A stretch of DNA of 64,000 bases from Thunnus maccoyii. Lineage: Eukaryota; Chordata; Actinopteri; Scombriformes; Scombridae. The notes under the pieces are model-generated. The model did not search any database, had not been told where the DNA came from, and worked only from the letters and a program-made list of their open reading frames with translations. Location: positions 11,710,001 to 11,774,000 of the forward strand of contig NC_056555.1 of the NCBI RefSeq assembly GCF_910596095.1, in the 5' to 3' direction. Both the position numbers and the translations under genes were made by a program. Numbering within the stretch: position 1 is the stretch's first letter; the number at the start of each line of letters is the position of its first letter. Positions 26,910-63,626 of the stretch are shown one piece after another.

Positions 26910-29900
26910 CTAGGGATCACACTTCATAATCTCTCTGAGGCAGATAGTGGCATAGCAGGAGGTGTCCAGGTCGAAGTTTAAGGTGAGTGTGAGCAAGTCT
27001 GAGTCCTGCTTTCCTTCTACTGCTGTGACATTCAGGTGGTTGTCACTTTTTCTACTGCTGTTTCCTGTCATCTCTCCCCCTCCCTCCCCACCGGCAGCCG
27101 CTCTCTGTAGCTGGTAGCTGAGGTTGTGTAGAAAGGCCAGCAGGGGGCGGTAGCAGCCTGGCAGGTTCAATTTGAGGCTGCTGACTCTGAAGCGACAGTT
27201 CTCCAGTCCGTCTCTGGCCAGTCTTTCCTGGTACCAAGTCCCCATGGCATTTTCTGGATACTTCACTGTGTTTCCTGGCATCGGTAGTAATACCTGATGA
27301 TGAAATAATAAACACTCAGTAGCAACAGTAGTAACAGAGAAAATAGTAGCATTTTTGCACATGTATTTGTCTAAGCTCCATACTTGTCCCAGAGAGTAGA
27401 CTCCCTCTTGTTCCTCTTGGTCTGTCACCACATGTATCTGGAAAAGCAAAGAAAGGAAAGATCAGCAACACTGATAGGATGCTTCCTCTGGTTAACAGCA
27501 GCTAAAACGCCCAATATGAAACTATACTAAATACTGTGTTAGAGTATAAGTAAGTGTTAAACTGTTCCTTTAATCGTTGATGGCTGAAAGATAGTTGATT
27601 GACAGTTTGTATCAATAATCTTGTTTCAACTCCCCTGAAATATGAGTTCAGCTGCTTGTTTTTTTCTATTTTCTATTCTATTTTACCTGAGCGCTGGATT
27701 CCTCGCTGTCCTCCAGTTTGTTTTGCCCTGACTGGATCCACACCAGGTCTCCTTGCCTGGCACTGTGGCCCAGAGTAGCCAACCTGTGTGCCACCGCCTC
27801 GTTCCACACTCTGTCAACCGCAAGCAGATGGATCAAAAGTTGGCAGCTAGCTTTCATTTTTAAAATGAAATGAATTCAATTGATTATGACATATTTAATG
27901 ATAGTTTTTCATGATTACATCTAATCCTTAAGAAAAAGAAAGAAAATCACAAACTCAAGGCAGGATTTATTTATGAATTGAAAGGATGAAAGCAAGTGAT
28001 GCTGGGTTAAACCCCAAAACTGGAACAATCTGATCAAAGTCTTTATCTCCCAGCTGTGTCAGCAAACAAAAGAGAGCCATGTCTGGTATATTCCTGCTGC
28101 TGACCTGCTGCAGTAGGCATGTGGGTAGAAGACTCTCATGCTATGGGGCAGGCTGAGCCAGGCTTGGGCACAACCATCTGGACCAGTACCGTAGCGGTTC
28201 AGGGCCCGCAGCATCAGCCGCTCCCTCGCTTTGGACAAGGGCATCAATGCCAAAGACTCCTTAGCATTATCTGTTATGGAGAAGCAGGAAAGACAATAAA
28301 GAGTGAAAGAGAGATTAAAACTCTTATGTTATGTGAATTCTTACGTCAATAAAATTGCTATTTGTTGTTCTGCAAAACAATGGGGTTTTCAACAAAAATC
28401 TTTGGATTTCAGCAGTTTCTTTGAATCAAATAGAGGAACTGAGTATTAGCAGCAAGGCAGAACAACAGGAAGAAACACATAGTTCCTCCAGTTCCAGACA
28501 AAAAAGTTCATGGGAGGCAACTTTCACATCATCTTTTATCTCTTTCAGAAAAAATGAAGCTGAGACTGTCCATGTTGACCCAGCTCTGACCTGTTTGAAG
28601 GAAATGTCTCTTCGCCTGGCTCTGAGGATCATCGCCATCTTCTGGAGTGAAGAACAGACGCACAGCATTCACCTGACCCACGAAGAAGAACATACATCAC
28701 AACACAGTACTGTACAGCCTGATAGTGTTCCCTCTGGATTTTCAGGAACAATGCAGTGAGCGATGCCAACTTTGAAATGCAAATGGTCTGCAGAACTTAC
28801 CATGTCTTCTTTGAGTAGAGCCAGCCCTACTTGGTCAGACTGAACACTCTGCCCGCTCCCAAACCTCTGAGGCCCATAGTAGTTGACGAAACCTCTGGCC
28901 TGAAAAGAAGAACAACGAAGGTGAACGTAGCAGTGGCTGTCTACTGGTATTGTAGCTACTTTGAACATTAAAAGTGAGACAGAAACAACAGGTATCTACT
29001 ATTTTAAAGATGAGGCTGGTGGTGTTTTATATTTTCCTTACTGTCAACAAATTACATGAAAAGACCAAAACCAGCAATGTGCTTCTACTGAAGATATATA
29101 CATATAATTCAAGTTTTAAACAAGGCTCAACGAAGTCCTCAAACAGCTGGGCACTGTAGTTTTTAGCAAATATTACTCAAAAAAGAGGAAATGGTGCATT
29201 TGTTGGGGACTATTTTCAGTTGTGCATTAATATACATTTGGTGCTCAGGTGAGTATTTCTGGCAGTAGGACAGTGTATGTGGGATTTACTCAAAATAAGC
29301 TACATCATTATGAAGAAACATGTCTCCCTGTGCAGCTGTGTGGCTCATTTATGTGCTTTTAATAACTTTTGGACAACAATGGAGGGCTATGTTACAGAAA
29401 AATGAGTTGTGTCAGGCTTTGGCTACATAGGCAATACTTGTTAGTGGGATCAATTCATTGATGGTTGTGGTCTTTTCATGAAATAAGAAAAATATAAAAT
29501 ATCACATCCTTTAAAATTATTCTCATTACGCTAATATAATGATGTGATATAAATGGTGCCTTGTTCTGATCCTCAAGTTGTTAAGGCTGTACCACTGGCC
29601 TCATCACAACCTTCAAGAGAAGAATTGTAAAGGAAATAACAGATTTCAGCCTCATATGTAATATCCCTTTTATAAATTTATTAGAATTTATTTTTATTTT
29701 AGGATGGGGCCAAATAAATGCAGTACATATAGGGATAGGCAGGACTTAAAAAAGGAGATCCTTTATGGTGGTTTCTATGTAAAGAATTCTCATTTGTATT
29801 ATAGTAACAAGAAAAATAGAGGAGGTAATGTGTCTTGTCCCAAACTACAAAGAAATAAAAATGAGTAGTACCTTGACATTCTCCACTGCTTCCTTTACCA

Positions 29901-31503
29901 GCCCTACCAGGCGAGTGTGTGTGTCTGCACCAGAGGGGTGTGTGTCACCGGCCCCGTGTGGCCTCAGGTGGCGGACCACCAGGTCAAAGTGGTTCCCCTG
30001 CAGTCGTCCAAGCCTCAGAGGCTCGCTGACAGAGCGGACCTGAGAGACACACATCCCTCTCTTCTCGAACTCTGCTGTCTTCTCTTTCAACCTAATGAAA
30101 AGAGACATTAAATGAATGTGTTGGAACAGATATAAAATGGCTTTAAAAGAAACATAAACTGTGAATTTCAGTATATAATTCCCAAACCAGACCCATGAAA
30201 GAAACCCAGCACTACCGTTGAGGTGAGACCTTCTTAACCACCATGGACTGGTAGGTGATGGCTCTCTTATCCTTGATCCCAGCGTAGGTGAAATCTGATG
30301 GTAGGACGCCGAGCGCTGCTGCCATGTAGCTGATGGCCTCCAGAGTCTCCAGGTTCTCCTTACGCAGAGTGAACGCTAAAAGGGAGGACACGTGTGGCAC
30401 AATAATGTTTTTCTTTATAAAAACCCTTACTTCCTACATTATTTCAACAAATAACTTCCTATACCTAATCAGTTGGTGTGTGACTTTGTTTGATGATTTA
30501 TGCTGAGTCATCCTATGAGAGTCAACTGACTGAGGGCCTAAATGAACAGTAAATGTGTTCTCCTGTGTTTACAGAAAGTAGCTTTTCCATTTTTCCAGAT
30601 TTATGCATATCAGAAGTGCCAGCAGAAATGATCAGAGACAGAACAAATTGGCAGATACAGTGATTTTTCTGATATGATTATAACCATACCGGTGTAAACT
30701 TCCTCTTCCTTACGGTCCTCCGCTGTCCTCTTCTTTGGCCTGCCTCTCTCCCTCAGTCTAACCGAGATGGCTGTCCTCTCCTGCTCGTTGAAGCTTTTTG
30801 TCTCCACCAGTTTGCCAAACCGTCGGCTCAGGAAGTGGTGGACAGCAGTCCTGTGCTCCTTATTATCATCAGGTTGAAATGTGTATGATGAGTCTCGCAC
30901 TTTGGCATCTATGAACCTGAAGAAGTCCTCCGCTTCCTCCTCTGTAACCAGCTGGGAGAGCTCTCTGTAATCGGGGTCTTCTCTCACCCTGATCTCAGGT
31001 TGTATGGTGACGGTCATGAGGAAGGGGAAGCGGTGTCTGACAGCACGGTGGACATTAGCTCTCTGGTGTTTGTCGGCAAAGTATCCCAGAGATAGCTCCT
31101 TGTTGGCCGGCTTTTCATCTTCTTCCTTCTCATCTCTGAGACTCACCACAAACTGCTCAAGCTCCTCACTGACTGACTGGCCTAAAATCATGCTCAGGTC
31201 AAAACTGCCTGGGCTAGGTATGGTGACATCCACCCTACAATCAGCTGAGCCATCAGTATCCTGTATGACCTGGAAATCATAGTGCTGCTTCCATTCTGTG
31301 CTGGTTTCACTGGTCTTTTCTGGAAATGCACAGTGTGGTGTCTGAGGAGCGTGTGTTGCTGCTGGTGTATTGACTTGCTGTCCATTTATGTCTATTTCAG
31401 TCACCACAAAGTCTCTGATAAAGTTCTTGATGCTTCCAAGAAAGCCTTCATGGCTGGATATGAAGCATGCAGGGACGTTCACAGCATCACTGTCCTGCTT
31501 CAT
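26910..31503 (-). CDS. pus7l: Pseudouridylate synthase 7-like protein (PUS7L), nine coding exons
   Basis: TruD-family enzyme that would convert uridine to pseudouridine in RNA; PUS7L is a paralogue of PUS7. Minus-strand exons are 31,503-30,690, 30,375-30,216, 30,091-29,872, 28,899-28,801, 28,672-28,591, 28,270-28,105, 27,810-27,687, 27,437-27,384 and 27,293-26,910. All introns are GT-AG and the phases join without a break, giving 700 residues; the human protein is about the same length. The TruD catalytic motif [13 protein letters not shown] is intact, with the nucleophile aspartate at about residue 307. The motif [12 protein letters not shown] lies at about 401-412 and NHFDLVVR is just upstream. 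I start at the ATG at 31,503 because MKQDSD...[10 protein letters not shown] aligns with vertebrate PUS7L N-termini. An earlier in-frame ATG (31,554) appears to lie in a 5'-UTR intron. The exon 9 linker ([10 protein letters not shown]...) looks lineage-variable. Confidence 0.95.
28990..29560. repeat. Dispersed-repeat text in pus7l intron 3
   Basis: About 29,160-29,470 resembles a common fish interspersed repeat ('gctttggctacataggcaat', 'gggatcaattcattgatggt'). No coding content was recognised. Boundaries are approximate. Confidence 0.4.
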
Positions 31504-31528
31504 GGTCACTTCATCCACACACTTAGTC

Positions 31529-31682
31529 CTGTTGCGGAAATGGACACAAATCAAATGTTACTAAGGACAAACGTAACGTTAGGAGGATTAGGAAGATGAC
31601 AAATGCTTATTTCTGCTGCAGAATAGGTATTACATGTAAAGATAGCCCGCACAATAACAACAGCGTCCTACACGTTAACTAC
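31529..31682 (-). other. pus7l: Predicted 5'-UTR intron of pus7l
   Basis: On the minus strand a donor (CTCGAG|gtagtt, exon ending at 31,683) and an acceptor (ttccgcaacag|GACTAAG, exon starting at 31,528) would define a 154-nt intron directly before the coding exon. This would remove the upstream ATG at 31,554 and leave the ATG at 31,503 as first. It is inferred from the sites alone. Confidence 0.5.
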
Positions 31683-35620: not shown

Positions 35621-36309
35621 GAGAGCAAAGGCGCTGGAGGTAAGGGGTCCATGGGGCCATTCCATATAGATGGAGACGCATTTGATTTGTGTGACAAATC
35701 AAATGCGTACAGGGTACACTGCAACCAATGAAATTGTTTCAATGATGTGTGTTACATTGTTTAAGTCTGTTTCAGCAGTTAACTTAGCTAGCTGAACTAA
35801 ACTTAGATAGGATCGTATCTGATGTAATTTGACAACATGGAGCAACCACCCAAGCCTATGTCACTGGCACAATCAGATACTTTGTGTAAACTTTACATGT
35901 CAATAGACAGAACGCAGGCTGTGGCAGCTGTGGCAGTAACACTTTACTATAGTAAAATGTAGTTTACTATAGGAAGTTATAGTTTGACTCATATTCACAC
36001 TCTAAACAGGAACAAGAGTTTCACTGAAAATGAATGATGTAATTTTAGACTTAGAAAGAGGTGTCAGTCACAGTGTATAAACCTAAGACTGCTTAGTTTT
36101 CAGCAGCAAGCTTCCCATCTGTGCTCTGTTTATTTGCTGCATTCTGCTCATATTCAAAAAGACAACTTGGAAAATTAAAGTGGCAAGTTGATTTAACCCT
36201 AACCCCCCTCCATCCCCACTAAACATCCATTCATCAACCCACACACCCAGCCCATATTCTCAGATGGGAGGGCCTTTCACCAGCAAAAGCAGGGGTCCTC
36301 CTTCCCACA

Positions 36310-36316
36310 TTTATAA
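36310..36316 (+). promoter_or_regulatory. TATA-like box of tetraspanin copy 1
   Basis: tttataa lies 131 bp before the ATG and is conserved with the same flanks (c-catttataatcatca) in copy 2 at 51,314-51,320. The promoter role is inferred. Confidence 0.5.
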
Positions 36317-36440
36317 TCATCAAGGTGCTGAGTGCAAGAAGAAGGGAAGTTTTTTCTAAAACCAGGATCATCTCTCTCAAAAGAACTTAAGTAAGAAAGC
36401 TTTAAATATAGCCTATTGCTGCGAGTTCAAGCGACACAAA

Positions 36441-39400
36441 ATGGGGAAATTGAACATCTATGTGAAATGGAGTTACATTATTGTGGCGAGTTTGCTGGCG
36501 GTAAGTGATTTCCTTTGCTGCTTCGTAAGACAGAAAGAGTAACAATGAACTCAACCTGGAAGGAAACCCAAGATACCAAAAACATAAGCACAGATGTTAG
36601 CCTACTGTAAAAAAAATACAGTTTTGGGTTGGTAAGTGAGCCGCCAGTGGAGGAAAGCAAGAGGAAAAGGGTACCAAAACAAAACTCTCTACAACATGAT
36701 AAACAAAATGATTATTAATAATAATGCATAAGCAGTAAAAGTCCCTTTTTGTAATAACTCTAACATTTGATATTATCGTGTGATGCAGCAGGAAGTTGGC
36801 ATATGTGTATGTGGTTTCCTGCTCAGTATTATGAATTACCAATAACCCAATTACACTTGTCCTAATTATAATAACCAAAATATTTCACAGTATTTTCAGC
36901 ACACATTTAAATAAGATTCTTATATCAACTCAAAGTTTAATTTTAAAACTAAACAAGAACAAGAAAAGTAGAGTGTTTAAAATCCTATAACTAGTAATAA
37001 ATTCCAACCTCTTCTTCTTCCTCCTCACAATTGCACAATGTAGATGGGAGCTAGATTATGCAACATGTGGTCACTTTTAACAGTTCCTGTTATTCTAAGA
37101 TGGTTGCCATCTTGCTGTTTAGCTCAGTCTGACTTTATGTACATGCTGTGTGAGCAACACAGTTCTCCTCATGATTTGGCCCGAAGCCCTTACAGTAGAA
37201 AAAGACTTTGTGATGCCTCACTAATAGCAACACTGGCACTGAGGTAGACCTGTAACAGCTCAAATGGAGTACATAGTCAGTACAGTGTACAGGAGAATAA
37301 ATAACTTATTTCTCAACAAGGTAAAGCAGTGATGTCTATCATAAACTTTCCCTGTATCAATAGTTAACTGCAGTAAACCCCTTAAATTAGTTTTCCAATT
37401 CCATGTTTTGATGAGCAGTGGTGGGGCTACCCCCTAGTTTATGTTTAGGTTACAGAGTTTAAGGCCTTAAAGTAATGAATAATGCATAATGTGTTGCTGA
37501 TGTTGCAGATCGTCAGTACCGTGATATTGGCAAGGACTCTGTTTTACCACGGATATTTACACAAGCATGAAGAGGTAACACATCTATCTGTCTGTCTGTC
37601 AGTCAGTGTATCTATCTTGGCAGTTGACAAACATCTTCTATCATCATTTTTTTTATCACAATATTGAAATATGTATTGTGAAACAAGCAATTCGAGAAAA
37701 TTCAATTGAGAATCCATTGGATGAAAATATATAAAATAAGCACATGGAAGTGATAACTGGGTGGACACATCAAGGTTCCTCATTCAAGAATCCAATACTG
37801 CTGCAAAGCATTCCTGCGAATTGATATGCTAAACTGTCCACAATGATCTAATACAACCACAGATATTAAAGTATAGCAAAATCTCTCATATTTCTGAAAT
37901 TACTGTTGTCTCATGGTATAGATCTTATATCACCCAACTCTGACCTATCTGTTTGTCCTCTCAACTCATCCATCTATATGGAAATGATCAAATGAAATCA
38001 ATGAGGCATTATCACGGAAAAAATGGAAGATATAATTCCATGTCATACAGTATATTCATTTTGCAAAAGATTTCCTTTCTTAAGATGCCTCATACATGTA
38101 CAGTATACTCATACATGGTGGTAATTGTTGTTCTCAAATGAGTAATTTGGCTGACTTGGCTTTTTTTGTTTGTTTTCTCCACAGATAGACAAGATGCTCC
38201 CAGGTTTCATTGTGATGTATGTTATTTTTATCATAACCCTGCTCTTGCCCATCATTGGTGTGTATGGTGCCCGCAAAGAGAAGAAATGGGCGCTTATTGT
38301 GGTTTGTAAAGAAAAAAAAACATTATTTTATTATTATTATTATTAGTTTTAGTAATCCTTAGTCTTTTTTCCCCAAAACTGATTGCCCATGCCTGTATGT
38401 GTGTTTCAGTTTACAGTTGGAATGATCCTGTGCACTCTGGTCATGCTTAATTCTGAAAGGCAACAACTGACTATACGACCAGAGGTATCACAAAGTTGAC
38501 TTTGAAATGTGTTGGTCTTTTCTGTGATATTTCTCACACACAATATATAAACTTCTTAATCTCAAACTATTCAAAGATAGCAAACTGAACAGAAACATCA
38601 CTCTGGGAAAGGTTTTTATTGTGGTCAAGTAAATCAACATGCTTGTCTGTATGTGTCTTTGAGATAAAGAAAGCAGCTTCCCAGTGTCTAATAGACAACC
38701 TCCTAACCAATGCCAACACCTTCTTCTGTTCCAACAAAGTAACATTTTTAAATTGCTACTTGGCAAATGTTTTAATATGTTGTCATCAGACATTTCTTCA
38801 TTTTGTTGTTCAGATAGCTGAGAGAGTGAAGGCGAATTACCTGGGATTTCTGCCACTGAGTAATGCCACTATGAATGACATAGAAAACCTCAAGTATATA
38901 CAGATGGAAGTAGGTAACTTCATGTGTATGTGTGTGTGTGTGTGTGTGTGTTCGTGTGTTCTGTGTTCAAGTTCATTTGTAGAGCACAATCTCATATAAA
39001 AAACTAAACTAAATGAAACTACTTAAATTGGCTCCCTGTGATGCAGAAAACCCTTCACAGAAGTTTGCCAGATGTGGAGGATAAAACACATGCTCCCCTG
39101 ATAATGTGAGCACGTAAGGCTCATTGTTCAGCTGCTTGAAGGACATCATTGGTTGTCACAAAATGCCCCGCAGCTGAACAAAGGAAAGACTGAAATTCTA
39201 TTGTTATCGCAGTAATTTAGTCTGCAGATGACAAAGGCATGAGTGTATTCTGAGGACAAGATTTGACCAACAAATGTTTGCAATTTTGGTGACCCATTGA
39301 TGGCAACACATATGTGTTGTGACACACATGTTGATAAGAGGCTGAATATATTAGTAATAGGAAGAATACAGAGTCAGCAATCAAAGTCGAAATTTGTTTT

Positions 39401-41232
39401 GATATATTCTAATTATTTCTTCTGGGTTCCTTCTCAGTTGCAGTGTTGTGGACTGGATCAGGGCTACCAGGACTGGGGCTACAACATCTCAGAATCTTGC
39501 CTGTGCCTCCAAGACTCCACAAATCCATGTGTGAGCATCAAAGCTACTCTCGATTTACAAAAAGTCAGAATTAACAGACGCTTTGTGATTTCAACCAAAT
39601 AGCTCAAATCCCAACTCCACACCTCCATCACTGTGACATCTACTCCACTCCAGGTAGAGCAGCACCTGTTACTATTTGTTAGTCATTGAACTAATGATTT
39701 GTGTCTATGTGTATTGTAGGTGGAAGCTCCTAAGAACAGCAGTCTGTCTCATCGGAAGCATGACCAGCCCATCATGATTTATAAAGAGGTAAAAAAAAAT
39801 CTTAAAATTTTCATTCCCAGGTTCACAGGTTGATGTATAAACTGTAACTCAAAAGCTTGCAGCCTTTCATACTCAGTGATTTTGCTTGTCATGTTCATAA
39901 GACAGCAGTGCAATTGTTGAATTTATTTGAGCTGATTATAAAAAAACAACAACAGGTCCAACAAAGTGCTGTTTTTCTCTATGTCTGCATAGGGCAAACC
40001 CTACTATTAAAAAGAAGGGTCATATTTTTTATTTAATCAAGATGTTTCCCAAGTAATATCCCTTCAATAGTCTAAAAGATATTATTATACCAAGCAGCGA
40101 GATCAACCACAGATCTTCCCTGCTTACTGAAGCAGTCTGAGAACTTCCCTACATCGCTTCTAAACTCAGATGTCTTCTGTAAGACATAAAGTATGTGAGT
40201 TATCAACCCAGAGCAGCAGCTGGTTTCACGAAGTTGTTCTCTTCTTCATACCCATATTAACACATTTATTAAATCAGTTATAATTTAACATTAAGGTGTG
40301 ATGACTTAACCCCAGATGTCATAAGAATTCAGTCTTGCGGATGCTTGCGACAGACAAGGCTGGGCATTTACAATATCCCCGCTTTCTCTTCCTGTTTTTC
40401 CTCTGGAAATCATCTGCAAGAACTTTTTTTTACTATGTTTTTGTCATGAAGATGACGTATGAAAATGTGTTCCTAATTACACTAATGTAGTATGAGCTGT
40501 TCATTGTATGATTAATTGCAGTGATTGATCCTCTTCTGTTTCAGCCATGCCTTCGATACTTGATCCAGTTGGCCTTGGCTGCCATAAATTTTGTAATTGG
40601 CATAGAGTGGGGACTCATATTAATCTGGGTATGTGCTCTCTGTCTCTATGTCCATTTTTATTGTGTGCACCTACATGCCTCCATCTTCTATGCTGTATCT
40701 TCACTTACACTTGCTTTTTGTTCATCCTTCCTTTTTCTGCTCTTTCCACACACAATATTCACTGATTGGTCATGACCGTCATTCTTTATGCAAAGCCTAC
40801 ATTCTGCTGTAAACAAAATTGGCCTTTGAAGCTCTTATTAACAATAATTCACAGGTGTTTCTGTTTTTATAAGTCAGAATCATTAAAATAATTTATCTTG
40901 TTATTCTTTATTTAGCAATACTTTCTATCATCTCTGCAACTCAGTGTAACATGTCAATCTGTCACTTCATTTTCATTGTCTTTTCCGCCACCTACAGTCT
41001 CTTTCTAAAATTGCAGCTCAATTTAAAGCAATTTATTGGCTGAAACAACAAAAACACGAATGCAAAGTATATAATTGTCTCTTTCATTTTCCTCTAGACG
41101 TTGTCAGTAGTACTCTGTATTATCATCCTGTGCCAGCTGAGACAGAAGGGAGATACCCCTCCAGTGGTCTACAGTGCAGAGGCAAAAAGTGGCAACTACA
41201 GCATCCTCACAGAGACTGCAGACTACACCTGA
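36441..41232 (+). CDS. Tetraspanin, TSPAN8-like, copy 1 (nine exons, 264 aa)
   Basis: Four-pass membrane organiser protein. Exons are 36,441-36,500, 37,509-37,574, 38,185-38,301, 38,410-38,484, 38,814-38,909, 39,438-39,530, 39,720-39,788, 40,545-40,628 and 41,098-41,232. All introns are phase 0 and GT-AG. TM1 is about residues 11-33, TM2 about 50-69, TM3 about 78-97 and TM4 about 208-231. The large extracellular loop has the CCG signature (C141, C142) plus C159, C161, C169 and C194, a six-cysteine loop. Its pattern CCG..G..DWG...C.CL...PC...YKE.C resembles TSPAN8. N-glycosylation sequons are N123, N154 and N175. The cytoplasmic tail has a YxxPhi sorting motif, YSIL (254-257). The protein is about 75% identical to copy 2. 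Orthology to TSPAN8 itself is inferred; partner proteins are unknown. Confidence 0.93.
38929..38953. repeat. (GT)n in intron 5 of tetraspanin copy 1
   Basis: A short GT run right after the exon 5 donor. Copy 2 has a much longer TG/TATG tract at the same place. Confidence 0.9.
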
Positions 41233-44733: not shown

Positions 44734-45920
44734 TTAAGGTGAGACAAATGCCAATTTGAAAAGATGGGTCTTCAGTTGCCTTTTAAAAGCTTCTACAGAG
44801 ACTGCAGAGCCCTGGTCAGAAGACCTGAGTGACCTTCTGGTGATATAGGGATGGAGAAGGTCACAGATGTACTCAGGTTTCTGTCCAGGCAGGGCACTAT
44901 ATGTGAAAACAAGAACCTTAAAATGAATCCTTAACCTGATTGGAAGCCAATGTAAAGAACTTAAAATGTGTGTGATGGGAGTCATTCTGCTGGATCTGGT
45001 TAACAGCCTTGCCGCAGCATTCTGGACCATTTATAGATGGTTCAGAGATGACTTGCTGAGACACGTGAAAAGGGAATTACAGTAGTCCAGCTGCGATGAT
45101 ATGAAAGCATGAATAATCATCTCTGGCTCCGGTTGTGGTACGACAGACGATATATGATATTCCTTAGCTGGAAAAACATGTACAGGTCAATGATTTAATG
45201 TGCTGACCGAAATTCATTTCCTGATCAAATATAACACCAAGATTTCTTAAATTATACCAAACAGCTTAGGAAAGGGACCCAATACTCTGAACAACCTTGG
45301 GAACTATACTGTCTGTAGCTATGATAAGAACCTCCGTCTTGTCTGTATTAAGCTGTAAAAAGTCCTTAATGGCAGTTGGACAATTGTGCAACACAGACAG
45401 TTTGTCGCAGATATCAGGCTTAAAGACATAGAGCTGAATATCGTCAGCATAACAGTGATAGGATATATCCCTAAATTAGCTAATAAAATGACCTAAGGGA
45501 AGCATATATAAAGCAAATAACATAGGACCCAAGACGGAACCTTGAGGCACACCACAGAAAGGCCCACAGTTTCAGACATGTAAGGACCAAGTGACACAGA
45601 AAAAATCCTATCTAAGAGGTAGGAGGAAAATAAGTCCAGGGCGCTCCCTGAGACACCCACACACTGCCTAAGCCTTTCAATCATTATTCTGTGATCCACA
45701 GTGTCAAAAGCTGTGCTAAGATGCAGCAGCACCAAAACGGAGCACTCACCCACATCAGAAGACGTCATTATGTCATTGGAGACTCTGAGAAGAGCAGTTT
45801 CAGTGGAACGCTTCTGACAGAAACTTGATTAGAACTTCAATCTTCGTCAAGACGGCAGTGAGCTGTTTGGCAACAATTTTCTTTAAATTTTTTGAAATAA
45901 AACGCAGCTTGGATATAGTT
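44734..45920 (-). pseudogene. L2-like LINE reverse transcriptase, degenerate
   Basis: Motif A reads LVLLHLSTAFDTVDH; the usual first aspartate (LLDLSAAFD) is changed to H. The YADD catalytic motif is intact at 45,440-45,451 (minus strand), within CYADDIQLYVFKPD. The C-terminal segment VQNAAARLLTRSSRMTPI, SLHWLPIRLRIHFKVLVFTY and PYITRRSLRSSDQG is typical of this clade. Several frameshifts separate the parts. Confidence 0.85.
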
Positions 45921-46019
45921 CTGTAGTTAATGGGAACGTACAGATCAAGGTTCTTTTTTTTTTCAGGAGAGGCTGAACAACTGCATGTTTGAAGCAAGCT
46001 GGGACACAGCCAGATTACA

Positions 46020-46425
46020 GGGTGCTGTTTATAATAAATTCTGTATTCCACATTGTTGGAAAGCACCTGTATGCCAACTCTGTTTAAATGGAGACCATCT
46101 GCACTGAAGAGATGACCATGTTTCCCGAAAAGGTTGAAATTGTGAACAAAGTGCACGTTGTTGGTGTTGCAGGCAGACGAGAACCAGGTGTTGAGGCTGA
46201 GCAGCTGCGTGAAAAGTCCTATGCCGCAACCATGAGCGGGGGTTGGTTTGGACATGTAGACATTGCTGTGTGACTGTTTGAGGATGTTACAGAGATGGGT
46301 GAAGTCTTGGTATAACAGCTCAGACTGCTGTTTTCTGATGTCATTTGTATCAACATGAACAAGGAACCTGTCAACCTCAGGATAGGAATTTAAAATGCCT
46401 GGGACTTTGTCTTGTACAGTACATA
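46020..46425 (-). pseudogene. SGNH-esterase-like module of the LINE
   Basis: The frame reads VDTNDIRKQQSELLYQDFTH, SLNTWFSSACNTNNVHFV, NFNLFGKHGHLFSADGLHLN. The 'TND' and 'DGLHLN' (D..H) pieces fit blocks III and V of SGNH hydrolases, which several L2/CR1-type fish LINEs carry next to their ORF1 region. It is fused by deletion to the reverse transcriptase. Confidence 0.65.
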
Positions 46426-46830
46426 ATGAGAGTTGATGGGGGAGACAGCACCTGCTGATGGGGGCTGTGGGAGCGGACAGCAGCTATGCAGGTTACTAGA
46501 CTGGTTACTGGCTTGGTATGACAGTGGTTGGATGAAGCCTGGCACTGAGACCTCCATCACTGGACAGCAGCTGGTCCTGGCAGGGCAGCCAACTCCTCCC
46601 CCAGGGCCTCCAGACCAGCAGAGACATGTCGGGATGGAGACAAAGCTGCAACTTTATCCCTGTTGTGAGGCAGACGTGCAGTGAAGATGCCCTGTGCTGG
46701 GCCTCGAAGACTATTGTGTCCAAGAGTTTTTTTAGCCTCTTGGATTATGTAGAGGTTGTGAATTCTTTGCTCCAACTCAGCGATCTTCTCACTGAGACAG
46801 AGACAGTTTTGAAGGTGAGGTAAGTAGAGT

Positions 46831-51441: not shown

Positions 51442-54400
51442 ATGGGGAAAGTGAACGTCTGTGTGAAATGGAGTTACATTGTCGTGACAAGTTTGATTGG
51501 GGTAAGTGTTTCTTTTGCTGCTGCTTTAGACAGAAAAAGTTAGAAAGCTGAATATCTACTTGTATTATCAGCCACACTCTAAAAAAATACAGTTTTGGGT
51601 TGTAAAGCAAGAAGAACAGGGTGGTGTTGTAAATTCAAAAACAAACCTCTCGTCAATATAATAAAAACACATTTTTTTAGTAATATTAGTCCCCTTTTGG
51701 CATAACTCTAATGAAAACTCCTCTTGATAACATTTGTTATTATCATGTGATGTAGCAGGTTTCCTGTTCAGTATTATTAGTTACCAATAACCCAGTTACA
51801 CTTGTCCTTATTACAATAACCCCAATATTTCACAGTATTTTCAGCACACATTTAACTGAGATTCTTATATCAACTCAAAGTTTAATTCTAAAACTAAACA
51901 AGAACAAGAAAAGTAGAGTGTTTAAAATCCTATAATTATATAAATCTCAACCTCTTCTTCTTCCTCCTCATAATTGCACAATGTTTATGGGAACTAGATT
52001 ATGCAACCTGTGGTGTTTTTTAAATGTTCCTGTTATTCTAAGATGGTTGCCCTCTTGCTGTTTAGATCATTCTGACTTCATGTACATGCTGTGTGAGCAA
52101 CACGCTCCTCATGATTTGGCCCGAAGCTCTTACAGTAGAAAAAGACTTTGTGATGCCTCACTAATAGCAACACTGGCACTGAGGTAGGCATGTAACAGCT
52201 AGAGTACATAGTCAGTACAATGTACAGGAGAATAAATAACTTATTTCTCAACAAGTTACAGCAGTGATGCTTATCATAAACTTTCCCTGTATCAATAGTG
52301 TTGGGAGTTAACGGCAGTAAACCACTTAAATTAGTTTTCTAATTCCATGTTTTGATGAGCAGTGGTGGGGCTACCCCCTAGTTTATATTTGGATTACAGA
52401 GTTTAAGGCCTAAAAATAATGAGTAATGCATAATGTGTTGCTAATGTTGCAGATCATCAGTGCCCTGCTGTTGGCAGGCACTCTGTTTAGCCATGGATAC
52501 TTCCATGAGGATGAAGAGGTAACACGTCTATCTGTCTGTTTGTCTGTGTATCTATCTTAGAAGTTGACAATATTGATAACATCTTCCATCATGGTATATG
52601 TCATTTTATATCACAATATTGAGATATGTATTGTGAAACAAGCAATTCAAGAAAATTCAACTGAGAATCCATTGGATAAAAATATATAGAATAAGCACAT
52701 GGGAGTGAAAGCTGAGTGGACACATCAAGGTTCCTCATTCAACAATCCAATACTGCTGCAAAGCATTCCTGCGAATTGATATGCTAAACTGTCCACAATG
52801 ATCTAATACAACCACAGATATTAAAGTATAGCAAAATCTCTCATGGTTCTGAAATTACTGTTGTCTCATGGTATAGATCTTATATCACCCAACCATAACC
52901 AAACCCTGACCTGTCTGTCTAGCTTGTTGTCTTCCAATGAGTTATTCAGTATATAAGTTTAACCCGTAAGTACAGTTCTGGCATGCTGACTCAGTGGCAT
53001 TGGACCCAGATTTTCTCCTTTTCCAGCTGAACTCAGCCTGCTGACTTGGCTTTTTTGTTTGTTTTCTCCACAGATAGACAAGATGCTTGCAGGTATACAT
53101 TTGATGTATGCTATTTCCGTCATAACCCTGCTCTTGCCCATCATTGGTGTGTATGGCACCTGCAAAGAGAAGAAATGGGCACTTATTGTGGTCAGTAAAG
53201 AAGAAAACATTACTAGTTTTAGTAATCCTTAGTCTTTTTCCCAGAAACTGATTGCCCATGCCTGTATGTGTGTTTCAGTTTACAGTTGGAATGATCCCGT
53301 GCACTCTGTTCATGTTTGATTTTGAAAGGCGAGGACTGGCTATGCGACCAAAGGTATTACAAAGCTGACTTTTGAAATGTATTGTTCTTTTCTGAGATAT
53401 TTCTTGCACACAATATATAAGCATTTTAACCTCAAACCACCCAAAGATAGCAAACTGAACAGAGACATCGCTTTGGGACAGTTTTTATTGTGGTCAAGTA
53501 AATCAACATGCTTATCTGTATGTGTCTTTGAGATAAAGAAAGCAGCTTCCCAGTGTCTATGATCATTAGTTTTAGTCAAATGAGCCATACAACTGTTGAA
53601 CCTAATAAATAACTTCCTAACCAATGCCTAATCTGTTCCAACAAAGTAATATTTTTAAATCACTAATTCTTCGTTTTGTTGTTCAGGTAGCTGAGGATAT
53701 GAAGGAGCATTACCTGAGTTTGCTGCCGCTGAGTAACGCCAGTGAGCATGAAATAGAAGGCCTCAAAGATGTACAGATGGAAGTAGGTAACATTGTGTGT
53801 GTGTGTTCATGTTCAAGTTCACTTGTATGTATGTGTGTGTGTGTGTGTGTGTGTATGTATATGTTTGTATGTGTGTGTATATGTATATGTGTATATATAT
53901 ATATATAAATTGGCTCCCTATGATGCAGAAAACCCTTCACAGAAGTTTGCCGGATGTGGTGGATAAAACACATGCTCCCCTGATAATGTGAGCACTTAAG
54001 GCTCATTGTTCAGCTGCTTGAAGGACATCATTCGTTGTCACAACTGCCCTGCAGTTGAACAAAGGAAAGACTGAAATTCTATTGTAATCGCAGTAGTTTA
54101 GTCTGCAGATGACAAAGGCATGAGTGTATTCTGAGGACAAGATGTGACCAACAAATGTTTGCAATTTTGGTGACCCATTGATGGCAACTCATATGTGTTG
54201 TGACACACATGTTGATAAGAGGCTGAATATATTAGTAATAGGAAGAATACAGAATCAGCAATCAAAGTCGAAATTTGTTTTGATATATTCTAATTATTTC
54301 TTCTGGGTTCCTTCTCAGTTGCAGTGTTGTGGACTGGATCAAGGCTACCAGGACTGGGGCTACAACATCTCAGAATCCTGCCTGTGCCTCCAAGACTCCA

Positions 54401-57400
54401 CAAATCCATGTGTGAGCGTCAAAGCTACTCTTGGTGTTGTGTGACATGATTTACAAAAAGTCAGAATTAACAGACGCTTTGTGATTTCCACCAAACAGCT
54501 CAAATCCAAACTGCACACCTCCATCACTGTGACATGTACTCCACTGGTAGAGCGGCACCTGTTACTATTTGTTAGTCATTGAACTAATGATTCGTGTCTA
54601 TGTGTATTGTAGGTGGAAGCTCCTAAGAACAGCAGTCTGTCTCATCGGAAGCATGACCAGCCCATCATGATTTATAAAGAGGTAAAAAAAATGTTCATTC
54701 CCAGGTTCACAGGTTGATGCATAAACCTGTAACTAAAAAGCTTGTATCCTTTCATACTCAGTGATTTTGCTCATCATGTACATAAAATAGCAGTGCAATT
54801 GTTAGGCATGGGCTATGTTCCACACAGCCCAGCTGATCTTGCACCTAACCAGGTTGGGGTTTGCAATCAACTGAAAGTAGAGCAGCCCCCAGCCACAGGT
54901 GGAATATCTGGGGGTTGTGCTCAACTCATGCAGACTTCTGTCGAAACTCAGACAGACAGCCCTGTCACAAGGAACACCACTGGGACGAGTGACCTCTTAC
55001 GTCACTGTGTTCATGAATGTGCCCCTGACGGGGTGGGGAAGGACCTGCATGGGGAGAGAGATAGGTGGAGTGTGGCCTCCAATGGAGGTTTGACACATTA
55101 ACCTCCTCAAGCTTCAGGTGGTGTCTTTTGGTCCTCCAACACCTCAAGCCCCGGGCACAGGGGAACCGCGATGGCCTGCATCAATAGGCAAGGTGGAGTT
55201 CGATCCGCTGCTCTGTTGAGGATGGCGAAGAACCTGTGGATGTGAGTGTCAGAGCATCTGTTGTCTCCGAAGGCTCTCTATGTTCCAGGGCTGGAAAACA
55301 GGGGGCTCAACCTCATGTTGAGGGGCGGACACCTGCCAGATGACTGAAGGCTTCACCCCGAGGTGGTGACACAGATTTGGACCCAGTTTGGGGAGGCAGA
55401 AGTGGATCTGTTCGCCAACCGGCCTAACACCCACTGTCCACTGTTGTTCTCTCTGATGCCACAAGATGAACCACCTTTGGAGGTGGACACGTTTGCACGT
55501 GTGCTATGGCCAGGAAAGCTGCTTTATGCCTCTCCACCTCTCCGTCTCATTCCTCTCCTGTAGGAGAGAGTGAGACAGGAGCAGTTGTCAGTCATTCTGC
55601 TGGCCCCAGGTCGCTGCTGGGCACTGTGGTAGGTAGAGATGTCTCAAATGCTGGCAGCCCAGCCCTGGACCATCCCCCGGTTTTGGGGGGCTCTGTCTCA
55701 GGAAGCAGGGGGAAGTGCATTGCCCACTCTGGGCCAACCTCTCCAGGCTTGGCTCCTGAGAGGGACAAGCCGATGTGGGCTGGGCTGCCTGTACAGGTTG
55801 TACAGACTATCCAGGCAGCAAGGGGCACCCCTGCCTGATACAGGGCAAAGTGGTTGGGGTTCCAATGCTGATGCGAGGAAAGGAGGTTAGATCCCCTGAA
55901 CCGTGCAGTCGGTTCTATCGCTCCTTTTTGCAGTGTTTGCTGGATGGGGGCTGTGTCATGCCACTATTAATGTGGCAGCATTAGCAGGAGGAGACCCTCC
56001 CATTGTGGTCCGCGCACACTACACAGACCATGGCAGTGTTGGCGGCCTTACTTAGTGGATTGAGTGTTGAGGACATATGCATGACGGCATCATGGTCTAC
56101 GATAGAACTGTCTGTTCATAGAGTTCAACAGTTCTGTTCCTTGAATATGTCAGACTCCTTTTCATGGTCTGTGGAATGACTCTGGACCGGTGAAAGGGGT
56201 AGGTATGTGTCAGTTGTGTTTCACCTGACCCCCCCTAGGCATGATACAACTGCATATTTCCGTACTCCTTGATGACCCAAGGAATGAGGTTTGCAGGGGG
56301 TCTGTTGCTTGTCATTGAACCCCTGTGAGATTAGGCCATGGCTTTACCCAGTTCAGTTGCATACTACCTGGGTTGGCTGGGACCCCCTATTTCTCTGCTG
56401 AGGCGGCCTAGGTTATAAAAGATAGGTGGGCTGTGGCGACTAACCTTTTGCCAGTCAGGAGATAGAATGAAATAGAGATAGATGATAGATGAGATAGAAT
56501 GAAGGTTACTATTATATATTATATCAGATATTGTAACTCTAGTTCTATAAGCACAGCAGGGCCTTCCACCTACAGGCCCTGTTGCTCCTACACCACTCAA
56601 TAGAAGAGGTTGTGGGATGGCAGACAGTGGTGATGCTGCTGCCTTATATACTGTGGGCTCCACACATATTCAGGTAGGCCTTTCCTGATTGCCCAGCTAC
56701 ATTTCTGCAAATTTCAGTGAGAGTATTACCCATAGAGTCCAATGGAGGGCTCCGCCTGTGCCTATAGAACTAGGTTTACAATATCGTAACCTTCATTATA
56801 ATTTAATGTTAACGCTTGATGACTTAACCCCAGATGTCATAAGAATTCAGTCTTGAGGATGCTTGCAGCAGACAAGGCTTGGTGTTTACAATATCCTTCT
56901 CATCCTGTTTTCCTTTGGAATCATCTGCAAGAACTGTTTTTCTACTACAAATATGTTTTTGCTGTATGAAAAAAAATGTGTTACTAAGTATGCTCATGTA
57001 GTATGAGTTCTCCATTGTATGATAAATTGCTGTGATCCTCTTCTGTTTCAGCCATGCCTTCCATACTTGATCTCACATGCTTCAATGGCCATAAATTTGG
57101 TAATGGGTACAGTATTGGGACTCACATTAATCTGGGTATGTACTGTCTGTCTGTATGTCTATTTTGATTGTATGCACCTACCTGCCTCCCTCATTATCTT
57201 CTATACTATAGTTTCACTTACATTTGTTTTCTTTTGGTCTTTTGTTTATCCTTCTTTCTCTCCAGTTTCTGCCATTTCAACACACAATATGCATTGATTG
57301 GCCATGACCTTCATTCTTAATGCAAAGCCTCCATTCTGCTCTAAACGACATTGGCAAGTGTTTTTACCTGTCCAATGCCTTTGGAGCTCTTATTAACAAT

Positions 57401-57803
57401 AATTCACAGTTGTTTATGTTTTCATAAGTCAGAGTCATTAAAACAATTTTTAAATAACTTCTTTCATCTTGTTATACTTTATTTACCAGTACTTTCTGTT
57501 ATCTCAGCAGCTCAGTCTAACATGTCAATCTGTCACTTCATTTTCTTTGTCTCCTCCACCACCTGCAGTCTCTTTCTAAAATTGCAGCTCAATTTAAAGC
57601 AATTTATTGGCTGAAACAACAAAAACACAAATGAAAAGTATATAATTGTCTCTTTCATTTTCCTCTAGACATTGTCAGTAGTGCTCTGTATTATCATCCT
57701 GTGCCAGCTGAGACGGAATAAAGACACCCCTCCAGTGGTCTACAGTGCAGAGGCAAAAAGTGGCAATTACACCGTCCTCACAGAGACTGCAGAATACACC
57801 TGA
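51442..57803 (+). CDS. Tetraspanin, TSPAN8-like, copy 2 (nine exons, 264 aa)
   Basis: Tandem paralogue of the gene at 36,441. Exons are 51,442-51,501, 52,453-52,518, 53,074-53,190, 53,279-53,353, 53,687-53,782, 54,319-54,411, 54,613-54,681, 57,052-57,135 and 57,669-57,803. Exon lengths and phase 0 junctions are identical to copy 1, and all sites are GT-AG. The CCG motif (141-143), the other four loop cysteines, three sequons (NAS, NIS, NSS) and a YxxPhi tail motif (YTVL, 254-257) are kept. Differences from copy 1 by exon are 7, 9, 9, 10, 14, 0, 0, 11 and 6 residues. The reading frame is intact, so it is probably expressed. A DIRS-like fragment enlarges intron 7 but leaves the splice sites untouched. 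Confidence 0.93.
53794..53907. repeat. TG/TATG-rich tract in intron 5 of tetraspanin copy 2
   Basis: An imperfect GT, GTAT and TA repeat directly downstream of the exon 5 donor. Copy 1 has only about 25 bp of GT there. Confidence 0.9.
54840..55570 (+). pseudogene. DIRS reverse transcriptase/RNase H C-terminal remnant
   Basis: Recognisable pieces are YLGVVLNSCRLLSKLRQTAL near 54,900 and EVDLFANRPNTHCPLLFSLM near 55,390-55,450. The latter is followed by LWPGKLLYASPPLRLIPLL, the stretch that follows RNase H in DIRS elements ('DLFA......CP..FS...P....A....WP...LYAFPP..L'). Stops interrupt the frame. Confidence 0.75.
56030..56179 (+). pseudogene. Tyrosine-recombinase C-terminal remnant (DIRS)
   Basis: The frame from MAVLAALLSGLSVEDICMTA to SWSTIELSVHRVQQFCSLNM matches the C-terminal end of DIRS tyrosine recombinases ('..A..A...G.....I...A.WS....F..FY.LD'). 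The expected tyrosine in the last block is replaced by C (FCSLN). Confidence 0.6.
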
Positions 57804-61918: not shown

Positions 61919-63626
61919 CTAGAAGGCACCAGGAACATATCTGTTAGATTGAAGAAGAGCCATGAACTCCTGTTTCCTTTCTATCTGGATCATCAGCTTG
62001 ATGCTCATAACAAGTAAAACCACCTGAGAATGAAATCACAAGAGTTACATTTTACAAGTGTGTCATGTTCAGTAATAGTTACAATGATTTTCTGCTGACC
62101 TAGTATCATATCTGATCATATCTGAAGACCGGAGCCCTTTCTCTAGTATCTATAATAATAATATTTCTTCTTAATTTTAACCTTAGCAATTTGGTGTGTA
62201 AATACAATAAACCTGCAAAAAATGTGTTAAGTGCTATATATTGTATGAAATTTGTGTCCAAATTAATAGCTGTATATAGTCCTGTCAAATGTATAGATGG
62301 ATAAAAATGTAACATACAACAAATGTGACATGGAAAAACACATACCCAAAACACTCCACTTCCAAATTTTATACCCATCGCCAGAGAGAATCCACGTTTC
62401 AGTGCGGAAACATAGATCGGTAGGCAAGGCTGTAAATAAACGTAGAGGTTTACTTTATAGGTGGTAGCAAAATAATTACACTGTGAATATATGTAGTAAT
62501 ACTTGATCTAAATATAGTTCATATGGACATTTTGTCATCCTATGTGTCAGACTGTCTACTGGTTCACAAATGCTATGAGTTCTTGAGATCTTTTACCTCT
62601 TGATAAACATACTGGTTCTTTGGAGCCCCAAGTGTTGCGCTGCCCCGCAGTCGAATCTGAAGAAGGATACAAAATCCCATTACATTTTGACAAGTATGCC
62701 ACATGACAATGAAAATGAAGTTGCAATAACATTTTTTAATTTTATCAAAAATCTCACAAGAAGGCATTATAGCCTAATTTTTATGTCAAACGTGTTTTTC
62801 CCATTGTGGAGAAAGGTGGACTATTTTTACATGATTAATATGACAGGCCTAGACCACTCGAGAATTTTGTTTGTACCTTAGAGAAAATTGGTGAATGCTG
62901 CAAGTTCTCTTAAATCGTTCGCACATGCCCCTTCAAAACAAAAGTGTTGGTATAAGTGGTTCTTGCATGAGGCCCAGTGTGTGGCTTTAAGACCAGTAAT
63001 CCTGATGAGTCACCTTCACTGGTTATATTCCATTTATATGCCAGTGAAATTAGATACTTACACATTTTCCTGGATATTGACAGTGACAGGAAGCAGGGAG
63101 TGTGGAGCCCCAGTCTTTGTAGCCTTCAACAAGACCACAGCACTTAAACTGGGGGTGACACACACAGAAACACACATGCAGGCCAAGTGAAAACCTTAAA
63201 GATCTGGTATTATGGCCTTTTTTGACTCATTTGTTCTAAATACTGAGTCTATATTAAACATATCTGTGACATTTTATTCACCAAAGTTGTTTAGATTTCT
63301 CTATATCCATCTTTCCTTACATCCCAGATTCCTCTCTGTCCTCCAGCAGGCTGTTTCGGAAACTATTTACATAAAACCAGTACTATTAATGACAACCTAC
63401 TCCAATTGGCCTGAGATATGGTCCCCACCTTTACCCCAGCCAATCGTAATACTTCCTAATGAATAATACAAGTTCCCTTACGCCTCATCTTTACCTTTGA
63501 GTAATTCCTGCAGCTGTCATTCGAACTGGAGTCTAATCCTGAATGGGAAGGGGAAGAGCCTGCTATTGCAGAGTTGAGATAAAGTTGTTTCAGAACGAGA
63601 AAATCGTGTCTAAGTTTCCTAACAAA
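61919..63626 (-). CDS. Third tetraspanin, 3' exons only (gene runs off the window)
   Basis: Minus-strand exons, numbered as in the tandem copies: 5, 63,626-63,495 (tentative); 6, 63,148-63,062; 7, 62,656-62,597; 8, 62,429-62,346; 9, 62,023-61,919 with stop TAG. All are phase 0 with GT-AG sites. Exon 6 reads FKCCGLVEGYKDWGSTLPAS plus CHCQYPGKC, the six-cysteine TSPAN8-type loop. Exon 7 ends APKNQYVYQE, matching the APKNSS...YKE of the others. Exon 8 starts PCLPIYVSALKRG and enters TM4. The tail ends NRYVPGAF and lacks the YxxPhi motif of the tandem pair. Exons 1-4 would lie beyond 64,000 or were missed. Exon 5 is unusually long (44 codons) and serine-rich; an alternative acceptor at 63,618 would break phase 0. 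Confidence 0.85.

Follow-up and report, generated by a model that had tools for sequence, protein, structure and literature searches.

The tandem tetraspanin genes

The window, a 64,000-nucleotide stretch of Thunnus maccoyii DNA, is carried by contig C23 of a 782 Mb genome and contains two tandem plus-strand tetraspanin genes, copy 1 (36441-41232) and copy 2 (51442-57803). Both possess nine exons, GT-AG introns and a frame of 264 codons with no internal stop, and the encoded proteins differ at 66 of 264 residues. The copies match the Pfam Tetraspanin family PF00335 with 69.0 and 78.6 bits (cut-off 32.1), and the matches extend over positions 1-224 and 1-225 of the 225-position profile, i.e., over the whole four-helix fold, which places both proteins in the family. 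On balance, we favour the view that gene conversion has acted in patches on this TSPAN8-like tandem pair, and that selection keeps, and probably drives, the differences between the proteins.

The pair appears to be TSPAN8-like on the strength of its loop cysteines. The six cysteines of the large loop and their CxC spacing are arranged in both copies as Huang et al. 2010 (PMC2965184) list for TSPAN8, type 6-cys-b1, with the pattern CCG--[DN][WY]--[P]XXCXC--C--GC. The final GC reads PC in the pair; the last loop cysteine thus follows P, in contrast to the G that precedes it in the TSPAN8 pattern. Using a site-specific model, these authors also report that vertebrate TSPAN8 has been under positive selection; the term “gene conversion” does not occur in their text. 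The nearest relative of copy 1 with a solved structure, by sequence, is Tetraspanin-15 (E=8.5e-5). The exons are listed below, with differences counted against the other copy in nucleotides (nt) and amino acids (aa); TM denotes a transmembrane helix.

36441..36500, plus strand: copy 1 exon 1, MGKLNIYVKW..., N-terminus and start of TM1, open frame with GT donor; 10/60 nt, 7/20 aa
37509..37574, plus strand: copy 1 exon 2; 15/66 nt, 9/22 aa
38185..38301, plus strand: copy 1 exon 3, TM2 and inner loop; 15/117 nt, 9/39 aa
38410..38484, plus strand: copy 1 exon 4, TM3; 11 replacement and 0 synonymous changes
38814..38909, plus strand: copy 1 exon 5, first arm of the large extracellular loop, fast-diverging; 22/96 nt, 14/32 aa
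39438-39530, plus strand: copy 1 exon 6, CCG core of the large loop; 2/93 nt
39720-39788, plus strand: copy 1 exon 7; 0/69 nt
40545..40628, plus strand: copy 1 exon 8, last loop cysteine and TM4, fast-diverging; 21/84 nt, 11/28 aa
41098..41232, plus strand: copy 1 exon 9, end of TM4 and C-terminal tail, includes the stop codon; 11/135 nt
51442..57803, plus strand: copy 2 tetraspanin, nine exons, intact 264-codon frame, GT-AG introns
51442-51501, 52453-52518, 53074-53190, 53279-53353, 53687-53782, plus strand: copy 2 exons 1-5
54319-54411, 54613-54681, 57052-57135, 57669-57803, plus strand: copy 2 exons 6-9

Coding indels are absent and the frames are free of stops, so that both proteins must be maintained and a freely drifting dead copy is rejected. 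No indel is found in 795 coding nt, against 9.9 expected at the rate seen in the introns (40 in 3227 columns; Poisson P=5e-5); in exons 1-5 and 8 alone (498 nt) there are no frameshifts (P=0.002), and random placement of their 94 substitutions leaves the frame free of stops in 4.5% of trials. The missing indels and the intact 264 codons of either copy rule out pseudogene decay.

Divergence across exons and introns

Nucleotide divergence of exons 1 to 9 is 16.7, 22.7, 12.8, 14.7, 22.9, 2.2, 0, 25.0 and 8.1%, respectively. Exons 5 and 8 head a diverged group, and the true exception is exons 6 and 7, which together differ at 2/162 nt and 0/54 aa. A first-pass annotation of this DNA had singled out exons 5 and 8, and its counts of changed bases and residues in exon 5 (38814-38909 against 53687-53782) and exon 8 (40545-40628 against 57052-57135) are exact. 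The acceleration is not limited to these two exons as it had claimed; exon 2 stands at 22.7%, and exon 4 carries its 11 replacements with no synonymous change. The about 3 synonymous changes that it gave for exon 5 compare with ~3.7 by the NG86 method, and the about 2 that it gave for exon 8 are too few, the NG86 count being ~6.4 beside 14.6 replacement changes. Its estimate of 10-12% for intron 4 agrees with the 9.7-10.1% obtained with careful handling of gap flanks (25/257; 29/287), while a looser blastn alignment yields 65/324, or 20.1%.

The intron figures depend on alignment in general. Forced global alignment gives 21% for intron 2 and 39% for intron 7; these high values arise because parts of both introns have no counterpart, and therefore the trimmed parts were used. 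When distance is measured from the accelerated exons under one alignment filter, intron divergence is 79/685 (11.5%) at 11-120 bp and 86/1425 (6.0%) beyond 200 bp. The contrast holds within introns (Cochran-Mantel-Haenszel test, P=4e-4, over the five introns that contain both distance classes) and exceeds what circularly shifted difference patterns give (P=6e-4), and the trend is carried by introns 2, 5, 7 and 8. Constraint at splice sites would predict the reverse.

Divergence along the introns is also over-dispersed, with an index of 7.4 that was reached in 0/3000 permutations, although repeat blocks that align poorly, in introns 1 and 5, contribute to this index. The mosaic includes the following segment.

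39080..39800, plus strand: probable converted tract of copy 1, comprising distal intron 5, exon 6, intron 6 and exon 7; counterpart 53961-54694

In this tract 22/717 columns differ (3.1%), and 300 intron columns within 39175-39567 contain 7 differences, lower than in 3000/3000 permutations. Such a mosaic is what would be expected of gene conversion, which probably homogenised the distal introns together with exons 6-7. The introns are hence unsafe as a neutral clock, because their divergence falls with distance from the exons and a stretch of 717 columns differs at as little as 3.1%.

Intron 7 of copy 2 is ~1.6 kb longer than that of copy 1 (2370 vs 756 bases). It includes a stretch without counterpart in copy 1 (54803-56793), possibly a remnant of a mobile element; two open reading frames (ORFs) in or at the edge of this stretch match no Pfam family at E 0.01.

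Replacement change and competing explanations

A codon model was fitted jointly with the introns, and replacement (dN) and synonymous (dS) divergence were scaled to intron divergence (dI). The intron reference comprised 2322 columns of introns 1-4, 7 and 8, with a stricter intron filter as a second version. For exons 1-5 and 8, dN/dI is 2.22 (P=1.6e-7), dS/dI 1.46 (P=0.16) and dN/dS 1.52 (P=0.13); under the stricter filter these ratios become 2.73, 1.74 (P=0.046) and 1.57 (P=0.11), respectively. Exons 6 and 7 show a dN/dI of 0, and exon 9 one of 0.72. The excess is not due to hypermutation at CpG, because it stays at non-CpG sites, where 76/453 differ in exons 1-5 and 8 and 194/1735 in introns 1, 3, 4 and 8. 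Against the near introns, dS/dI falls to 1.20, 0.86 and 0.99 under three filterings, with dN/dI at 2.03 (P=5.6e-5), 1.37 (P=0.049) and 1.64 (P=0.0034); against the far introns, dS/dI rises to 2.6 (P=0.0016). Synonymous change in these exons is thus on a par with the near introns and above the far ones, and the replacement excess becomes smaller but persists.

Taken singly, exon 5 has dN/dI 3.01 (P=2e-4) and dN/dS 2.31 (P=0.18), and exon 8 has dN/dI 2.73 (P=0.003), dS/dI 3.34 (P=0.03) and dN/dS 0.82 (P=0.74). Jointly, dN/dS of these two exons is 1.35, not significantly above 1 (P=0.48, likelihood with two copies). The first-pass annotation had looked to a dN/dS well above 1 in exons 5 and 8 as support for diversifying selection; this is not borne out, because the ratio lies at 0.97-1.7 for exons 1-5 and 8 and below 1 in exon 8. 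Its broader statement holds, as coding sequence diverges faster than the introns, mostly by replacement and with both genes intact, but the introns do not provide the clean neutral clock that it assumed. Two further values come with their own limits: exon 4 gives P=0.005 for dN=dS as one of several exons tested, and exons 4 and 5 give a dN/dS of 4.8 (P=0.004) as a combination picked after the data had been seen.

These results are consistent with the following sequence of events. After the duplication, conversion between the neighbours would have homogenised the distal introns and the block of exons 6-7 with the CCG core, and exons 1-5 and 8, which encode the transmembrane helices along with the small loop and the large-loop stem, would be left as islands of divergence. 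Selection probably acted against conversions running through these exons, and positive selection is the probable driver of part of the amino-acid difference that they show. Conversion rather than constraint would have slowed the introns, and selection would have kept it out of the exons. That stretches of apparently swapped DNA lie beside diverged exons suggests that the twin proteins are kept different for some purpose.

Several observations weigh against this reading. Conversion is deduced from the mosaic of two sequences in one genome, and regulatory constraint could be the cause of the slow far introns. Intron 1 lacks the distance trend (12/148 near, 37/504 far), and the exons have sharp borders, with 8/94 positions differing within the first 10 intron bases. 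Against all non-converted introns, synonymous sites show a weak excess (1.46, P=0.16; 1.74, P=0.046, under the strict filter), and dN/dS of exons 1-5 and 8, from 0.97 (NG86) to 1.7 (likelihood), is not significantly above 1. When codons with at most one difference are used alone, dN/dI drops to 1.32 (P=0.13), in a conservative test that throws out true changes too.

It is possible, although we hold it as a tentative idea, that conservation is reversed in this pair, with conversion holding the outer-loop CCG core identical while selection separates the membrane helices and the loop stem. If so, the twins would share one outer recognition surface coupled to different membrane partners. The membrane helices and the loop of tetraspanins touch different partners, as in CD9, where EWI-2 is bound mainly via small residues of the membrane region and the loop is what fertilisation requires (PMC7105497). 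By analogy with CD9, the two proteins may share one loop core and differ in membrane partners or in their site in the membrane. Binding to partners or pathogens, named by the first-pass annotation as a possible cause of the divergence, may be at work.

A rather unlikely alternative is an old duplication with relaxed constraint, in which exons 1-5 and 8 drift near the neutral rate, the true neutral divergence is taken as 15-20% or more, the introns are slowed by conversion, and positive selection is unneeded. The near equality of dN (0.216) and dS (0.222) by NG86 in exons 1-5 and 8, which underlies the ratio of 0.97, is what it predicts; the divergence of 20-35% in the 5' region 36200-36800 (partly poor alignment) and the weak conservation of exon 5 in another TSPAN8-like pair (12/32 aa identical) also fit. 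Nevertheless, under free drift neither the lack of frameshifts in 498 nt (P=0.002) nor that of stops (4.5% of simulations) would be expected, dN/dI exceeds 1 even against the near introns, and the codon bootstrap of dN/dS for these exons spans 1.01-2.20 (5-95%, 60 replicates).

We consider improbable the model of the first-pass annotation, in which the duplication is young, the introns evolve neutrally, the exons are under strong diversifying selection and gene conversion plays little part. It would account for the dN/dI of 2.2 (P=1.6e-7), for the value of 3.0 in exon 5 (P=2e-4), for the 11 replacements without synonymous change in exon 4 (P=0.005, one of several exons tested) and for the sharp exon borders. 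It fails to explain why intron divergence decays away from the accelerated exons, or why exons 6-7 are nearly identical together with their introns. Exon 8 is a further difficulty, as its synonymous sites are above the introns too (dS/dI 3.3, P=0.03) and its dN/dS is not above 1.

It is very doubtful that a few multi-base events, such as compensated frameshifts or segment switches of the kind known from snake-venom genes, rather than many selected point changes, underlie much of the amino-acid divergence. In favour of such events, exons 1-5 and 8 contain 25 pairs of adjacent differences where 17.8 are expected (P=0.027), a clustering that introns 3, 4 and 8 do not show (9 vs 8.1 expected), and significance is lost without all multi-change codons. 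Against them, dN/dI remains 1.89 (P=6.9e-5) without the suspect codons, and runs of differences counted once are still denser in the exons (69/498 vs 187/2322, P=1e-4). A shift of +1/-1 in exon 3 lowers the mismatches between FIV and IHL (P=0.065), and gaps improve the alignment of exon 8 at QLALA/SHASM with the frame kept overall (P=0.18); neither alignment is significant. In the former, FIV (copy 1, 38206-38214) and IHL (copy 2, 53095-53103) could be related by one +1 and one -1 shift ~7 bases apart. Copy 2 would be the changed copy, because two outgroup paralogues carry LIV and HIV.

The amino-acid changes fall on both copies, not on one alone. With two distant paralogues as outgroups, the outgroup residue is kept in exon 3 by copy 1 at 4 and by copy 2 at 0 of 9 differences (5 undecided), and in exon 5 by copy 1 at 2 and by copy 2 at 6 of 14 (6 undecided). 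The third TSPAN8-like paralogue of the window keeps 5 with copy 1 and 5 with copy 2, leaving 33 of 43 differences undecided. These paralogues are too distant for branch dN/dS.

With patchy conversion and selection, the pair would be a case of a pattern already known from the primate L/M opsins. In gibbons, exon divergence of these genes exceeds intron divergence, the introns having been converted and conversion having been selected against in the exons (PMC3213168). Both systems are tandem duplicates with exons more diverged than introns, as the tetraspanin dN/dI of 2.2 (P=1.6e-7) attests. The opsin study differs in that dN is not significantly greater than dS, synonymous divergence is clearly above that of introns, and population data lend support, whereas the tetraspanin comparison has a dN/dS of 0.97-1.7 and one genome. 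Accelerated coding change in duplicates, with some clustered changes, also recalls the snake-venom genes, for which acceleration together with segment switching in exons was described as ASSET (PMC2711939). Those genes, in contrast, encode secreted toxins and not a membrane protein, and segment switching is non-significant in the tetraspanin pair. No description of such a converted tetraspanin pair was found in the titles and shown abstracts of the open-licence papers listed on positive selection in teleost tetraspanins, tandem duplication of fish tetraspanins and teleost tspan8 paralogs.

A comparison of exons and introns in tandem duplicates can falsely prove positive selection when the introns undergo conversion. 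The tetraspanin pair may show both effects, and also how distance-resolved intron divergence separates them. Should orthologues confirm the amino-acid excess that remains, the two genes would provide a natural test of which tetraspanin segments set partner choice, with the membrane helices and the stem, and not the loop core, as candidates.

Related and neighbouring genes

A search of the same genome with the copy 1 protein returned the two copies and otherwise distant paralogues; there was no third close copy among the best candidates scored from 27 matches at E up to 10, and a donor paralogue elsewhere was rejected on this result. A far more diverged TSPAN8-like gene spans the end of the window on the minus strand.

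62346..63148, minus strand: third TSPAN8-like gene, part within the window, corresponding to exons 6-8 (tblastn and frame reading)

Counterparts of exons 3-5 lie past the window end (about 66064-65462), and those of exons 1, 2 and 9 were not found by tblastn and frame reading.

Two other tetraspanin pairs allow comparison. One of them, TSPAN8-like and older, is located on C23 near 23.36 and 23.38 Mb; it aligns in short pieces that include exons 3 and 6, with the introns mostly unaligned, which is the ordinary order of exon and intron divergence. Identical residues in this pair number 29/39 in exon 3, 12/32 in exon 5 and 27/32 in exon 6; high divergence of exon 5 is thus partly expected, since it is the loosest of the three there too. 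A very recent tandem pair on contig C18 (268001-278000 and 284001-294000), whose longest aligned pieces are 95.9% and 99.7% identical, has no excess of change in exons (3/303 nt over the two that were compared; flanking 200-base windows 0-3.5%) and is too young to say much.

Among the neighbouring ORFs, 10/28 were covered by a Pfam scan. Between the tetraspanins, a 227-aa ORF on the minus strand (45803-46483) gives a GDSL-like lipase match below the Pfam cut-off (E=0.0011). We also note a minus-strand gene at 26913-31554 with PUS7L N-terminal, R3H and TruD domains, which is probably PUS7L, a pseudouridine synthase.

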